Notes under the pieces: model-generated | Database searches by the model: none | Seen by the model: the letters and a program-made list of their open reading frames with translations, nothing else | Told to the model about the DNA's origin: nothing | Assembly (NCBI GenBank): GCA_014879845.1 | Contig: JACSRI010000137.1 | Span: forward strand, 1-64,000 | DNA: 64,000 bases | Origin: Opitutaceae bacterium | GTDB lineage: Bacteria > Verrucomicrobiota > Verrucomicrobiia > Opitutales > Opitutaceae | Direction of reading: 5' to 3' | Part shown: positions 6,497-40,850 of the stretch, piece by piece | How positions within the stretch are numbered: position 1 is the stretch's first letter | How the letters are laid out: every line of letters starts with the position of its first letter | Translations under genes and position numbers: made by a program

Positions 6497-7513
6497 TCAA
6501 CCCTTTTCCGGCGCCTTCGGTGCGGGCAGGGCCGCCGGGTCCTGCACCTTTTCGCGGCGCGCGACGGTGGCGAGGACCCTGGGCACGTAGAGGCGCGTTT
6601 CGGACGGTAGTTGCCGGGCCACTTCAGGAAACGACTTCGTCCGGCTGGCCTTGAGCGCGCGGCTGACGCGACCTTCGCCGGCATTGTAGGCGGCGAGGGC
6701 GAGCGGCCAGGACTGGAAGGTGCCGTGCAGCGTGCGCAGGTAGCGCGCGGCGGCGCGGGCGCTTTTCTCCGGGTCGGTCCGCTCGTCCGGCCACGAGGTG
6801 CTCATGCCGAAGCGCTCGGCTGTCGCCGGCATGAACTGGAACAGGCCGCGCGCGCCGACCGGGCTGCGCGCCCTCGGGTTCATCGACGACTCGACCTCGG
6901 CGATCCACACCCACTCCGGCGGCACGCCCTCTTCCGCAAAGACCCGTTTCAGGCGCGGGACGAGGGTTTCGGCGCGCGCTGGCGGTTGGTGGCCGATCAC
7001 GACTTTGTCCCAGTAGGGACGCTCGAGTGGCGACGAGACCTTCGTGCGCGACGTCTCCGGAATCGGCGTGCTCGCTCCGGGCGCGGCCGAGGCGGTGACG
7101 ATGTCGAGCCGCGGCTCGAGCCAGTCGGCGAGCTCATCGCCGCCCTCAAACCGGCGCAACACGAGCAGCGCCTGCCGTGCGTCGATCTCGTAGGCCGCGA
7201 TCTCCTCGAACGACCCGTCCGTGAGCGCGCGCTGCAGGTCGGCGAGAAACGCCTCCACCGACTCGCGTGTGGGAAATTCGTACTGCGCCTTCAGCTCCTG
7301 CGGGGCGTACGCCTCCCAGAGCTGCTGCCCGGCCTCGAGCACGGCGTCGAGGTCGGGCGTCGCGGCATCCTCCTCCGCTTGCGCCGCGGGTGTGGCGCGC
7401 GGCGCCGGTGGCGTATCGGCGGCGCGCACCGCGAACGTGGCGACGGCGAAGCCGATCGCTGCGCGACGAAGCGCCGCTGGAGCGAAACGGGATGGAGCGC
7501 GGGTGGGTCTCAT
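6497..7513 (-). CDS. Lytic transglycosylase, SLT/MltC-E type
   Basis: The 338-residue exported protein begins with an Arg-rich signal peptide (RRAAIGFAVATFAVRAADT). An uncharacterised Ala/Glu-rich helical region (roughly 40-170) precedes a C-terminal SLT domain. The catalytic glutamate lies in AEVESSMNPRARSP, followed by GARGLFQFMPATAERFGM and ALAAYNAGEGRVSRAL, all standard for family-1 transglycosylases that cut peptidoglycan between MurNAc and GlcNAc. The ATG at 7513 was preferred over upstream codons because it gives the signal peptide directly. It is divergent from the sigma-factor gene at 7650. Confidence 0.9.
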   Translation of the reverse strand: MRPTRAPSRFAPAALRRAAIGFAVATFAVRAADTPPAPRATPAAQAEEDAATPDLDAVLEAGQQLWEAYAPQELKAQYEFPTRESVEAFLADLQRALTDGSFEEIAAYEIDARQALLVLRRFEGGDELADWLEPRLDIVTASAAPGASTPIPETSRTKVSSPLERPYWDKVVIGHQPPARAETLVPRLKRVFAEEGVPPEWVWIAEVESSMNPRARSPVGARGLFQFMPATAERFGMSTSWPDERTDPEKSARAAARYLRTLHGTFQSWPLALAAYNAGEGRVSRALKASRTKSFPEVARQLPSETRLYVPRVLATVARREKVQDPAALPAPKAPEKG

Positions 7514-7589
7514 GACTTCTGGGACTCTATCGACCGCGCGGTTGAGGGGAAGTTTCTCGGGGCGCCGATCTCTATGCCCAGTCGATTCG

Positions 7590-7618
7590 GGAACTGCGCG
7601 AGAAATGTGTGCGATTTC
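7590..7618 (+). promoter_or_regulatory. Possible ECF-type promoter before sigma gene 1
   Basis: GGAACT at 7590-7595 matches the classical ECF -35 core GGAAC; GATTTC follows after 17 bases. A similar GGAACG plus 17-base spacer stands before the second membrane-tethered sigma gene (14113-14141), suggesting autoregulation. The -10 halves do not match each other well. Confidence 0.35.
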
Positions 7619-7649
7619 GCGACGGCGTGCGGTTATGAAGTGAGACCGC

Positions 7650-9116
7650 ATGTGCACCGATGCCGAATTGCTCCAGCGCTACGTTCGTGACCGGGAGGAG
7701 GCCGCCTTCTCGGAACTGGTCGGGAGGCACCTTCCAGTCGTCTATGCCGCGGCGCTTCGCCGAGCCGCGGGTCGGGCTGAGCTGGCCGAGGACGCGGCGC
7801 AGCAGGTGTTTTGCGACCTCGCCCGCAAGTCGGCCACGCTCATGCACCACGACTCGCTGATTGGCTGGCTGTATCGGAGCGTCCGCTACGCGGTGATCGA
7901 CGCGCTCCGCGCCGACGTGCGGCGGCAGAGGCTCGTGCAGCGCGCGGCGCAGGAGGTGGTCGGCATGCCTGAGGACAACCCGCCGGACTGGGAGGAGCTG
8001 CGCCCATGGCTCGATGCGGCGATGGACGACCTGCGCGCGGGCGACCGCGAGATCGTGCTCATGCGCTACTTCTACGATCTCTCCTACCGCGAGATCGGCG
8101 AGCGCCTCGGCGTGCCGGAAAACACCGCCCGCATGCGCACGGAGCGTGGGCTCGATCGTCTGCGCGCCTTGCTCGCGCGACGCGGCGTGCGCTCGAGCGC
8201 GGCGGCGCTGGTCGTCGCTCTCGGGCACGAGGCCTGCGCCTCGGCTCCCGCGGGCGTCAGTCTCGCGGTGACGCAGGCGGCGCTCGCGGTCGGGCCGGCC
8301 CACGGAGCCGGCGCGGTGCTCATGACTTTCCTTATGGCCAAATACACCATCCCTGTGCTGAGCGGCCTCGTGGCCGCCGGAGTCACCGCGGTCGTCTGGA
8401 CCGCGTCGTCGGAGCGCGTGAGCGCCGAAGAACTCGCCGCGCTGCGTGCCGAGCGCGACCAACTGCAATCCCAACACGCCGAGGCGGGGTCGGGGAGTGC
8501 GGTCGCCGCGGTGCCGGCCGCAGCCACGGCGGCGACGCCGGTCTCCACCACGCCGGTTTCGACTTCGGCCACGGCGATCTCGACGGAACCGACGGCTGCA
8601 TCTCCATATCCGGCGACACAGGGCGAAGTCACCGCGCGCGGCCACAGTAACCACGGTACGGCGACGCCGATGGATGCGGCGATGACCTTCGCCTGGGCCT
8701 GCGACATCGCAGATCCGGTCGAACTGGAGCGGCTGATCACGTTTGATGCGGACGGTCGCGCGGCGGCCCTCGAGGAGTTGGCGCGCATGCCGGAGGAGGT
8801 CCGCACGCAATTCTCCACGCCGGAGGCGCTCTATGGCATGCTCATGGCCGGGTCGTGCCTGGAGGCGCCGCCTCCCGGAGCGGACATGATGCGGCAGTTC
8901 ATCACCATGGTCGAGCTGACGCCGGACCGCTATGCCTCACGCAAAAAAGGCAGCGACCGCAACTTCCACGAATACCAGCGGACCGAGGCTGGCTGGAAGT
9001 ACGTCATCCCGGTCGCCGGCGTGCGCGGCCTGCCGGGCATCCTGAAAAGCGATACGCTGGCGCGCCTGAGTGCGCGGGCATCGGCTCCGGCCCAGACGGC
9101 GACTCCCGCACCATGA
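7650..9116 (+). CDS. Membrane-tethered ECF sigma factor with C-terminal sensor-like domain
   Basis: The 488-residue protein has sigma region 2 (EDAAQQVFCDLARKSATL, with core-binding and -10 helices) at about 10-95 and region 4 (LMRYFYDLSYREIGERLGV plus ENTARMRTERGLDRLR) at about 130-180. An Ala-rich stretch and one membrane segment (IPVLSGLVAAGVTAVVWTA) lie near 235-255, then a short coiled coil (SAEELAALRAERDQLQSQ), an Ala/Thr/Pro linker to about 330, and a folded C-terminal domain to 488. With the sigma part in the cytoplasm, the tail would be extracytoplasmic. The same TM, coiled coil, linker and domain recur as a separate protein in the next gene, whose start overlaps this stop by 4 bases. 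The signal sensed is unknown. Confidence 0.88.
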   Translation: MCTDAELLQRYVRDREEAAFSELVGRHLPVVYAAALRRAAGRAELAEDAAQQVFCDLARKSATLMHHDSLIGWLYRSVRYAVIDALRADVRRQRLVQRAAQEVVGMPEDNPPDWEELRPWLDAAMDDLRAGDREIVLMRYFYDLSYREIGERLGVPENTARMRTERGLDRLRALLARRGVRSSAAALVVALGHEACASAPAGVSLAVTQAALAVGPAHGAGAVLMTFLMAKYTIPVLSGLVAAGVTAVVWTASSERVSAEELAALRAERDQLQSQHAEAGSGSAVAAVPAAATAATPVSTTPVSTSATAISTEPTAASPYPATQGEVTARGHSNHGTATPMDAAMTFAWACDIADPVELERLITFDADGRAAALEELARMPEEVRTQFSTPEALYGMLMAGSCLEAPPPGADMMRQFITMVELTPDRYASRKKGSDRNFHEYQRTEAGWKYVIPVAGVRGLPGILKSDTLARLSARASAPAQTATPAP

Positions 9117-9784
9117 ACCGCGTGGGACGATCCAGTCTTGGCGCGCTGGCGGCGGCCGGGCTGACGCTCGGTTGCCTGTATTGGATCGACCAGAGGCGCG
9201 CCGGCGAGGCGGGCGCGCTTCGGAGCGAGATAGCCGGATTGCGTGCTCGAGCCGCGGCGCGGGAGCCGGTAGCTCCCCCGGCGATGGCGGCGACTCCTGG
9301 GGGCGGCGTGTCGGTCGCGACGCCGGCACCGACGGCGGCGCCGGCAACGCCGCCACCTCCGCTGCCGATCTACCGTAACGAGGGCAGGGCGACAGCGCGC
9401 GCCGCCCTGCAGACGCTGGCCTGGGCCAGCGATCGCGGCGATGTGACGACGGTGCAGGCCATGTTGGTTTTCGACGATGCAGCGCGGACCAAGGCCGAAC
9501 AGTTGTTCTCCTCCATGCCACCAGAGGCTCGTGGCTCGTGGCGCAGCGTCGACGACATGGCGGCGTCGCTGATCACCATGTCCGGGATGCAGGCGCCATT
9601 TCCCGCCGCGGATGTGCTTGAGCACATCGAACTCGAGCCATTGAGCCCGGAGCGTGCGCGGCTGCACTTGCGGGGAACCCGGCGCGATGGATTGGAGTTT
9701 CAGCGCACGAGCACGGGCTGGAGCTACGTCATCTCGGAGGTGATGGTGGACCGGTACATCCAGCAACAGGCTGCGGGGCGTTGA
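9113..9784 (+). CDS. Membrane-anchored paralogue of the sigma factor's C-terminal half
   Basis: The 223-residue protein has an N-terminal membrane segment (SLGALAAAGLTLGCLYWI), a short coiled coil (LRSEIAGLRARAA), a Pro/Ala/Thr linker and a C-terminal domain. That domain matches the tail of the preceding sigma factor: TLAWASDRGD vs TFAWACDIAD, LFSSMPPEAR vs ELARMPEEVR, FQRTSTGWSYVIS vs YQRTEAGWKYVIP. It seems to be a duplicated sensor half without a sigma domain. The ATG overlaps the upstream stop (ATGA), so translation is probably coupled. It may heterodimerise with, or compete against, the sigma factor's tail. I know no named family for the domain. Confidence 0.8.
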   Translation: MNRVGRSSLGALAAAGLTLGCLYWIDQRRAGEAGALRSEIAGLRARAAAREPVAPPAMAATPGGGVSVATPAPTAAPATPPPPLPIYRNEGRATARAALQTLAWASDRGDVTTVQAMLVFDDAARTKAEQLFSSMPPEARGSWRSVDDMAASLITMSGMQAPFPAADVLEHIELEPLSPERARLHLRGTRRDGLEFQRTSTGWSYVISEVMVDRYIQQQAAGR

Positions 9785-14144: not shown

Positions 14145-14194
14145 GGATGGAATCCTGTTCGGTCGAGCGGTCCTGCGGTGCTGATGATGGTGCG

Positions 14195-15808
14195 ATGGGC
14201 GAGAGCGATGTGGAGTTGTTGGGACGCTACGCGACCGGAGGATCGGAGGCGGCGTTTGCCGAACTGGTGCGCCGGCATGTTGCGCTCGTCTTCGGATCGG
14301 CCCTGCGCCGGACCAATAACAATCGGGCGCTGGCCGAGGAGATCGCGCAGACGGTGTTCGCGACGCTGGCGCGCGACGCGGCGCGGCTGCAGTCCGGGCA
14401 GGCACTCGCCGGCTGGCTCTATGTGGCGACGCGCCATGCGGCGGCGAATGTCATGCGTGCGGAGGCGCGCCGCGCGCGCCGGGAAGCGGAGGTTTGCGCG
14501 ATGGATGTGATCCACTCCTCGGATGACGCATGGAATCAACTCCGGCCCGAGATCGAGGCCGTGCTCGATGCGCTCGAAGCCCGCGAGCGCGATGTCGTGC
14601 TCCTGCGTTTCTTCGAGGGACGATCGTTTGGCGAGATCGGCGAGGCTCTCGCGATCTCCGAGGATGCGGCCCGCGTGCGCACGAGCCGCGCCCTGGAGAA
14701 ATTGCGTATCCGTCTGGCAAGACGCGGCATCACCTCGACCGCCGCGGCCCTGGGCGGCCTGCTGGCGACGCAGGCCGCGGGTGCCGTGCCGGCGGGCATG
14801 GCGGCTTCCATCGCGACAGCGGCCCTTTCCGGAGCGGCGGTGCCGCTCGCCATCGGCGCAAGTTTCGGGGCGAGCGCGCTGGGTGTCCTTACTTTCATGA
14901 ATACGACGAGGATTGCGGCGGGTGTAGCCGTCGCGGCGGCGGTGCTGGCCACGGGAGTCTCGGTCCAGGCGCTGCGCGAGCGCGGGAGTGCCCTGGCCGA
15001 ACTGCACGCGGCGTGTGGCGAGATGGACGCTCTTTCGCGGGCGCTGGCCGAGGCACGGGATGCCAGGCGCGGATTGGAGGAACGGCTCGCGACGGCCGTT
15101 CCTGCCACCGCGTCTCGAGATCCCGGGGGCGCGGCGGCGTCGGTGCAACGACCCGCCGAGGACGAACTCACGCGCGCGCTCGATATGCAGTATGGGAGTG
15201 ACGACTATATCACGGCATCCCAGCGCCTCGAGCGCGCGGTGTTCCCGTTTCAATACGGTCAACTCTGTCGACAGCTCGGCCTCTCGCCGCAGCAGGTGGC
15301 GGCCTTTGAACAGGCGCTTGCGGACCGCAGTACAGATATGAACGATGTGATGGCCGCTGCCCGCAGCCAGGGGCTCTCCACCACGGATCCCGCTGTGATC
15401 GAGATGGTCGGTTCCGCACAAACGCGGCGCGAGGCTACCCTCAAGTCGATTCTTGGAACCGAAGGATACGGCGCGTTCCAATCTTACCGGGCCATCGGTG
15501 GGGTGACGGAACTCAACGAGTTCCTCGTCGAGGCGCAGCTTCAAGGCATACCCATGAGCAGCGAGCAGGTGGATTTGCTCTTGCAGCAGAAGGCCGCACA
15601 CAGATCCCGGGTCAAAACCGCAACCAGCAGCGTGAGAGCGTATGACTGGGAGGCGATCACTCGCGACCTGGGCAGTGTGCTTTCGCCTGAACAGTTGGAG
15701 CTTCTGGGGCGTTTTGGCGAGATGAAGTCGGCGTTGGTTGCGAGAACGGTCGCCTCTTCGGCTTTGCGAAAACAGGCAGCCGACGCCGGCCCAGTGCCCT
15801 CGCCATAG
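14195..15808 (+). CDS. Membrane-tethered ECF sigma factor with a Spy/LTXXQ-like tail
   Basis: The 537-residue protein has sigma region 2 (ALAEEIAQTVFATLARDAARL) at about 15-90 and region 4 (LLRFFEGRSFGEIGEALAISEDAARVRTSRALEKLR) at about 125-175. An Ala/Gly-rich hydrophobic region and a membrane segment (IAAGVAVAAAVLATGVSVQAL) lie near 245-265, then a coiled coil and a C-terminal helical domain. The tail repeats a short pattern (LGLSPQQVAAF, PMSSEQVDLLLQ, LSPEQLELL) reminiscent of Spy/CnrR-type metal or misfolding sensors. It differs from the tail of the sigma factor at 7650. The ATG at 14195 was chosen because region 2 starts immediately after it. No anti-sigma gene is adjacent; the tail may act in its place. 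Confidence 0.85.
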   Translation: MGESDVELLGRYATGGSEAAFAELVRRHVALVFGSALRRTNNNRALAEEIAQTVFATLARDAARLQSGQALAGWLYVATRHAAANVMRAEARRARREAEVCAMDVIHSSDDAWNQLRPEIEAVLDALEARERDVVLLRFFEGRSFGEIGEALAISEDAARVRTSRALEKLRIRLARRGITSTAAALGGLLATQAAGAVPAGMAASIATAALSGAAVPLAIGASFGASALGVLTFMNTTRIAAGVAVAAAVLATGVSVQALRERGSALAELHAACGEMDALSRALAEARDARRGLEERLATAVPATASRDPGGAAASVQRPAEDELTRALDMQYGSDDYITASQRLERAVFPFQYGQLCRQLGLSPQQVAAFEQALADRSTDMNDVMAAARSQGLSTTDPAVIEMVGSAQTRREATLKSILGTEGYGAFQSYRAIGGVTELNEFLVEAQLQGIPMSSEQVDLLLQQKAAHRSRVKTATSSVRAYDWEAITRDLGSVLSPEQLELLGRFGEMKSALVARTVASSALRKQAADAGPVPSP

Positions 15809-40250: not shown

Positions 40251-40850
40251 TCAGCGTCTGAGCCAGCGGGCCAGCTTCTCCTTCAGCGTGGCACGGGCGC
40301 GGTAGAGGCGGGTCTCGATCGCCTTGGGCGTGGTGCCGGCGATCACGGCGATCTCGGTGTGGGAGAGTTCCTCGTATTCGAAGAGGATGACCGCGGCGCG
40401 CAGGTCCGCGGGCAACTCCTGGATCGCGGTGCGCACGGCGGCGGCGCGCTCGCGCGTGAGAGCCTCGTCGGCCGGTCCGGGCTCGGAGGATGCGTGCTCG
40501 CGGGGGCGAGCCGAGGCGCCGGAGTCCGAGGGATCGGCGGACGCGTCGAGCGACTCCGCGGCCCGGCGGCCCATCTTCTCGGCGTGGTTGCGGCAGAGGT
40601 TGACGGCGATCGTGAACAACCAAGTCGAGAAGCGGCTCCTCGGCTCGTAGCGGGCGCGGTGCCGGTAGACACGCACAAAGGTCTCCTGCACGAGGTCGTC
40701 GGCGTCGGAGGCGTTGGCCAGGTAGCGCAGGACGAAGGCGCGCACCGGGCGCTGCCAGCGCAGCATGATCGTGTTCAGCGCGAGGTCATCGCCGCCGGCC
40801 AGGGCGGCCATCAGGCGCTTGTCCTCGGTGTCGTCGAGACGGGGCTCCAT
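40251..40850 (-). CDS. ECF-type RNA polymerase sigma factor
   Basis: The 199-residue protein with only sigma regions 2 and 4. Region 2: YLANASDADDLVQETFVRVYRHRARYEPRSRFSTWLFTIAVN; region 4: LPADLRAAVILFEYEELSHTEIAVIAGTTPKAIETRLYRARATLKEKL. It lacks the membrane tail of the sigma factors at 7650 and 14195. It is the last of three minus-strand genes, after a single-span protein and a periplasmic sensor-like protein. The order, with the sigma last, is the reverse of the usual sigma/anti-sigma operon. Confidence 0.92.
   Translation of the reverse strand: MEPRLDDTEDKRLMAALAGGDDLALNTIMLRWQRPVRAFVLRYLANASDADDLVQETFVRVYRHRARYEPRSRFSTWLFTIAVNLCRNHAEKMGRRAAESLDASADPSDSGASARPREHASSEPGPADEALTRERAAAVRTAIQELPADLRAAVILFEYEELSHTEIAVIAGTTPKAIETRLYRARATLKEKLARWLRR

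Follow-up and report, generated by a model that had tools for sequence, protein, structure and literature searches.

An Opitutaceae ECF sigma factor with a membrane helix and a predicted outer domain, and an overlapping gene for a partner with the homologous domain

Introduction

Few membrane-spanning sigma factors have been studied. Sigma factors with fused transmembrane regulatory extensions have been described in IutY/ECF243, ECF48, ECF52 and ECF53, of which IutY of Pseudomonas putida is released by Prc and RseP, with cleavage also proposed for ECF52; for 15 of the approximately 26 ECF groups that carry extensions, no mechanism is known (PMC8999054). The locus described here was found in a window of 64,000 nucleotides (the whole stretch of DNA that was analysed) from an Opitutaceae bacterium. 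It consists of gene A, encoding an ECF sigma factor with a membrane helix and a folded outer domain (termed DOM), and gene B, encoding a membrane-anchored protein with the same domain (Table 1).

Gene A resembles IutY, ECF48, ECF52 and ECF53 in combining sigma factor, transmembrane helix and outer region in one polypeptide (PMC8999054). However, in those proteins the membrane segment is preceded by a domain of anti-sigma-like or zinc-finger type, whereas none was identified by Pfam in gene A, and no free copy of their outer domain is described as a partner, the role considered here for gene B; IutY also works with a TonB-dependent receptor, while the tail of the window protein is a DOM (PMC8999054). 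ECF41 and ECF56 possess a C-terminal domain of probably similar fold (SnoaL-like, NTF2), but without a membrane helix before it, whereas helix and linker intervene in gene A; furthermore, contact with the sigma part is described for the C-terminal domain of ECF41, while the DOM of gene A is placed beyond a membrane helix and is accompanied by a second gene (PMC8999054, PMC7730460). Sigma factors with fused transmembrane segments and with NTF2-fold (SnoaL) tails are thus already known, the latter without a membrane helix.

More distant likenesses are found in ECF42, which has a TPR extension and a conserved YCII-type neighbour gene whose domain is fused to the sigma factor in some genomes, but for which no membrane helix is described and whose domains are unrelated to those of A and B, and in planctomycete ECF57, an ECF sigma factor with a long C-terminal extension that is, however, a WD40-type tail with no DOM partner described (PMC8999054). 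RpoE-RseA-RseB and FecI-FecR-FecA are analogous in controlling a sigma factor across the inner membrane, with a separate outside partner that can set cleavage, but their sigma factor and membrane protein are separate, no outer domain is common to partner and membrane protein, and RseB is soluble, unlike the membrane-anchored B. The preliminary description of this locus stated that no system of this form had been described, which is too strong for the sigma half (IutY/ECF243, ECF48, ECF52, ECF53; PMC8999054). For the two-gene module, a literature search that did not extend to the central ECF classification returned no description of a sigma factor with an outer TonB_C, ExbD or DOM tail and a dedicated DOM partner.

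The sigma protein and the partner gene

Matches of gene A to PF04542, PF08281 and TIGR02937 (8.8e-23) all passed the Pfam and NCBIfam cut-offs, and the protein has the regions 2 and 4, the short linker and the lack of region 3 that define ECF sigma factors. The Ala-rich segment that follows belongs to no Pfam family, although its G, S, A, L and P positions are almost invariant among the tails of 46 relatives, and no Pfam match to an anti-sigma or zinc-finger domain was found between sigma factor and transmembrane helix in gene A or in the tails of 46 relatives. Residues 234-252 form the best hydrophobic window of gene A (Kyte-Doolittle 1.83), so that a membrane helix lies C-terminal to the sigma part and is itself followed by a folded outer region, the arrangement of a transmembrane extension. 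AlphaFold2 predicted residues 243-281 to be helical, with low confidence in the N-terminal part of this stretch, and gave a pLDDT below 50 for linker residues 282-321. A cytoplasmic SnoaL-type domain was considered for the tail and ruled out, as the membrane helix intervenes.

Genes A and B share four bases (ATGA), gene B starting within the stop codon of gene A. The product of gene B consists of approximately six residues, a membrane helix, a coil, a linker and a DOM. This agrees with the preliminary description, in which a sigma protein continued into helix, coil, linker and folded domain (as now identified by Pfam, hydropathy and AlphaFold2) and a gene overlapping it by four bases encoded the same parts without sigma. 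Gene B cannot be a classical anti-sigma factor, because with only approximately six residues ahead of the membrane helix it has no cytoplasmic domain; free DOM partners elsewhere also have a membrane helix with few residues ahead of it. A lipoprotein assignment (LTLGC) was likewise rejected, most orthologues being without Cys at that position.

Table 1. Features of the sigma-DOM locus, with positions numbered along the window
Feature	Position	Strand	Basis or remark
Putative operon promoter, TGTGCGATTT-N11-GCGGTTA, ending 14 nt ahead of the gene A start	7608..7635	+	motif conservation
Gene A, ECF sigma + TM helix + coil + linker + outer DOM, 488 aa	7650..9116	+	
Sigma region 2, gene A residues 23-90	7716..7919	+	Pfam PF04542, 4.7e-8
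Sigma region 4, gene A residues 120-171	8007..8162	+	Pfam PF08281, 6.3e-13
Ala-rich conserved cytoplasmic segment, gene A residues 179-233, from sigma region 4 to TM helix	8184..8348	+	
TM helix, gene A residues 234-252	8349..8405	+	hydropathy 1.83
Helical coil beyond TM helix, gene A residues 253-281	8406..8492	+	AlphaFold2
Ala/Thr/Pro-rich linker, gene A residues 282-338	8493..8663	+	pLDDT
Outer DOM domain, gene A residues 339-466	8664..9047	+	BLASTP, AlphaFold2
Gene B, free DOM protein with TM anchor, 223 aa	9113..9784	+	start overlaps stop of gene A
Signal-anchor/TM helix, gene B residues ~7-25	9131..9187	+	hydropathy 1.45
Outer DOM domain, gene B residues ~87-220	9371..9772	+	AlphaFold2, homology to gene A tail

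Homology and predicted fold of the DOM domains

Comparison of A and B using BLASTP showed 34% identity over 122 residues (E=4e-20), and the motifs TFAWACD and GWKYVIP of A correspond to TLAWASD and GWSYVIS of B, as previously described. Local alignment of the two DOMs scored 184, compared with a mean of 29 (sd 4.9) and a maximum of 47 for 500 shuffles, which excludes chance resemblance. The DOM is a folded domain of approximately 125 residues, predicted by AlphaFold2 with a pLDDT of 95.1 and pTM of 0.88 in gene B and a pLDDT of 94-98 for residues 340-466 of gene A. The two predictions have the same order of helices and strands, rather than the unrelated folds that would have told against a shared sensor half.

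No Pfam or NCBIfam family was found above cut-off for the tail of gene A or for gene B, nor did either have a Pfam match to SnoaL. DUF4878 was matched weakly in five of 82 relatives (best 6.4e-5), under its curated cut-off. The best matches among solved structures were mostly NTF2-like folds, at moderate similarity (VIA Z 5-6; Foldseek E >0.06), and also included N-terminal parts of penicillin-binding proteins. Judging from these model-based comparisons, the fold of both DOMs is probably NTF2-like.

Distribution and gene order among relatives

The genome itself holds a second pair of the A-B type (contig C63) and a third unit in which a sigma gene with a TonB_C-like tail is followed by a free DOM gene (contig C41). 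A profile search covering 150 genomes of the family identified the DOM in 42 and gave only two weak matches outside the family in a sample of the phylum, while named matches obtained with full-length relatives of A were from Opitutaceae/Opitutia and other Verrucomicrobiota. Sigma tails with a related, more distant DOM were seen in other Verrucomicrobiota lineages (L212, L223), and the domain superfamily therefore extends past Opitutaceae.

From 71 stretches taken around DOM matches, 90 DOM-bearing frames were obtained, 20 fused to a sigma factor and 70 free. An automatic rule placed 48 of the 70 free DOM genes directly behind an ECF sigma gene. Five further sigma-DOM neighbours were added by eye (L015, two in L126, L148, L158), bringing the tally for Opitutaceae, a census suggested by the preliminary description, to approximately 53 of 70. 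Relative to the stop codon of the sigma gene, the start of the free DOM gene mostly lies at -3 to +37 nt. With approximately 59 sigma region-4 matches in the whole 5.4 Mb genome, such adjacency would be expected by chance in only about 1% of cases. Among the remaining free DOM genes, five were truncated or at contig ends and approximately 12 had real other neighbours; conversely, sigma-DOM genes without an adjoining free DOM were found in L093, L136 and L157, and neither part therefore strictly depends on the other. An unsystematic look at the surroundings of the pair revealed no adjoining gene conserved with that of the window. Its divergent neighbour (6497-7657, minus strand) is a lytic-transglycosylase-like exported protein, the place of which is taken by a purD-like gene in L131, L146, L136 and L143.

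A DOM subclade without sigma neighbours was also observed (L108, L112, L116, L122, L127, L138), with the DOM sitting behind frames resembling ABC-transporter permeases in L108, L122 and L127. Elsewhere the DOM is fused to an apparent PDZ-type exported protein (L096) or to a long exported STN/TPR-like protein (L104).

B could accordingly be pictured as an envelope protein without regulatory effect on A, its gene merely accompanying the sigma gene, for instance because B is the principal target of the sigma factor and serves the cell wall or outer membrane. Effector genes are indeed frequent in autoregulated operons, and the occurrence of DOMs outside sigma operons, beside permease-like genes or in PDZ-like and STN/TPR-like fusions, fits this explanation, but the tight, strong linkage to sigma genes, the single duplication common to sigma tail and free DOM and the sigma-DOM-DOM fusion described below make it improbable.

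Outer ends of related sigma factors and topology

While the sigma factor itself carries an outer DOM in 20 genes, TonB_C was identified in 31 of the 46 DOM-less sigma tails scanned and ExbD in six, with SLBB and TPR as single cases. Examples of transmembrane sigma factors with TonB_C or ExbD tails are those of L139, L101, L123 and L095. A partner composed of transmembrane helix, coil and DOM is typically encoded by the second gene in a larger type of sigma module, in which the sigma factor usually has an outer TonB_C or ExbD.

Almost every one of 70 related sigma proteins has a transmembrane helix at approximately the same distance past sigma region 4, with a mean hydropathy of at least 1.6 in 62 of the 70; a comparable helix follows this region in some ECF57 proteins. 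Flanking charges alone do not establish the topology of A. However, TonB_C and ExbD domains function in the periplasm, and since they occupy the same place in relatives, the position beyond the helix is very probably outside, which contradicts a cytoplasmic tail and provides strong grounds for a periplasmic location of the outer domains. Both the module and its topology are well supported. Sigma factors with an outer TonB_C or ExbD could dock directly on the Ton/Tol machinery.

These observations can be drawn together, tentatively, as a large class of verrucomicrobial modules, each comprising a transmembrane sigma factor with an exchangeable outer end (TonB_C, ExbD/TolR-like, NTF2-like DOM, SLBB, TPR) and a bitopic DOM co-receptor, with a common promoter type and autoregulation of each unit; the sub-type of the window would pair by homologous outer domains, while TonB_C and ExbD sub-types may couple the sigma factor directly to Ton/Tol energy machinery. 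In its entirety this picture is possible rather than probable.

Origin of the double-DOM form

A tree was constructed from 87 DOM sequences, in which support for the inner forks was uneven because the domain is short. Tails of the window type and their free partners formed one clade (100/100), within which the free copies formed a clade (100/99) and the tails grouped together (93/69); one old duplication therefore gave both the tail and the free DOM. The two have stayed together in nine loci, eight of them pairs of genes and the ninth a fusion. In another set of double-DOM pairs (G023, G105, G115, G006) the partners formed a clade of their own (100/97) and the tails were likewise separate, so that the double-DOM form appears to have originated on at least two occasions. 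The presence of matching domains on both proteins is one sub-type of the sigma module. The duplicated sensor half of the preliminary description is thus upheld in that B is a true paralogue of the outer half of A in a conserved pair, but B is not merely a copy of the A tail.

In L143, from a one-contig genome, a single frame of 627 aa was found to encode sigma factor, helix, DOM and DOM, with a short linker between the two domains. This union of both domains in one sigma polypeptide favours physical association. The distance matrices of tail and free DOM correlated only weakly in a mirror-tree comparison (r=0.37, Mantel p=0.09).

The fusion also bears on whether B might be a feedback decoy, its free domain competing with that of A for ligand or protease and damping the response without a stable complex with A. 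The presence of the same domain on both proteins, in the same operon with coupled starts, would suit a decoy, as would the apparent double origin of the arrangement. Nevertheless, the natural sigma-DOM-DOM chain points to a joint unit, and competition for ligand cannot be the general role of B because the sigma factors paired with a free DOM mostly end in another outer domain, TonB_C or ExbD, leaving this explanation doubtful.

A conserved motif upstream of the sigma genes

The sequence TGTSCGNTTT-N11-GCGGTTA, or a near variant, was found upstream of most window-type double-DOM sigma genes, ending approximately 14 nt before the start codon. Of 59 related sigma genes outside the set from which it was derived, 48 had its first, -35-like half (TGTBCGRTTT) with no more than one mismatch in the 10 positions, compared with one of 56 control stretches taken farther upstream. 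This half lies at a near-fixed distance, in most related genes approximately 38 nt ahead of the point where the sigma domain begins. The second half of the motif differs by sub-group. Across the genome of the window, the full motif occurred without mismatch only at the operon itself; allowing two mismatches, three occurrences were found compared with one for the reversed control, a number near chance. The conserved position of the first half is what would be expected of ECF sigma factors that recognise their own promoters, and the family-wide motif probably represents self-promoters of the sigma genes.

Proposed mechanism

We give about an even chance to the interpretation that A and B form one operon and one signalling unit, in which a membrane-tethered sigma factor is freed by proteolysis and B serves as co-sensor or gatekeeper. 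A would be held in the inner membrane by its single helix with the probably NTF2-like domain in the periplasm, and B would be its bitopic partner, which scarcely extends into the cytoplasm and has a coil beside that of A and a related outer domain. Pairing in the membrane via coils, outer domains or both would keep the sigma part off its promoters. A periplasmic signal would alter the outer A-B complex, allowing A to be cut outside by a site-1 protease and then within the membrane by an RseP-type M50 protease, and the released sigma part would transcribe its targets, among them its own operon by way of the conserved upstream motif, whereupon freshly synthesised A and B would reset the system. 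Contact between A and B is suggested with moderate confidence, as are proteolytic release and autoregulation. Precedents are provided by IutY and by the models for ECF52 and ECF53 (PMC8999054). Genes for M50 proteases are present in the genome, but are merely permissive for release, because most bacteria have them. B could act as a co-receptor, as a shield against cleavage or as a decoy; RseB, which shields RseA from cleavage, offers an analogy.

Signalling might alternatively proceed without proteolysis, outer pairing of A and B acting on the conformation or clustering of A, which would stay in the membrane and recruit RNA polymerase there through its tethered sigma part. The long helix that runs from the membrane into the coil, together with the presence of coils in both proteins, would be compatible with this, and conformational transmembrane signalling is common among other receptors. 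Such a mechanism is nonetheless unlikely, as among the transmembrane-fused ECF sigma factors that have been studied or modelled IutY undergoes cleavage and ECF52 is proposed to do so (PMC8999054).

Returning to the favoured interpretation, the conserved pairing points to a two-protein reading of signals outside the cell, uncharacterised so far. The family offers natural swaps of the outer domain beside a constant partner type, a natural DOM-DOM fusion and a likely self-promoter for each unit, making the control of a tethered sigma factor by its outer domain directly testable.

Other sigma factor genes of the window

Another membrane-tethered ECF sigma gene was identified at 14147-15808 (plus strand); LSPxQ-like motifs recur in the long outer tail of its product, and its upstream motif is weak (TGTTCGGTCG). 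The third sigma region-4 match of the window lies at 40284-40439 (minus strand), within a frame of 378 aa.
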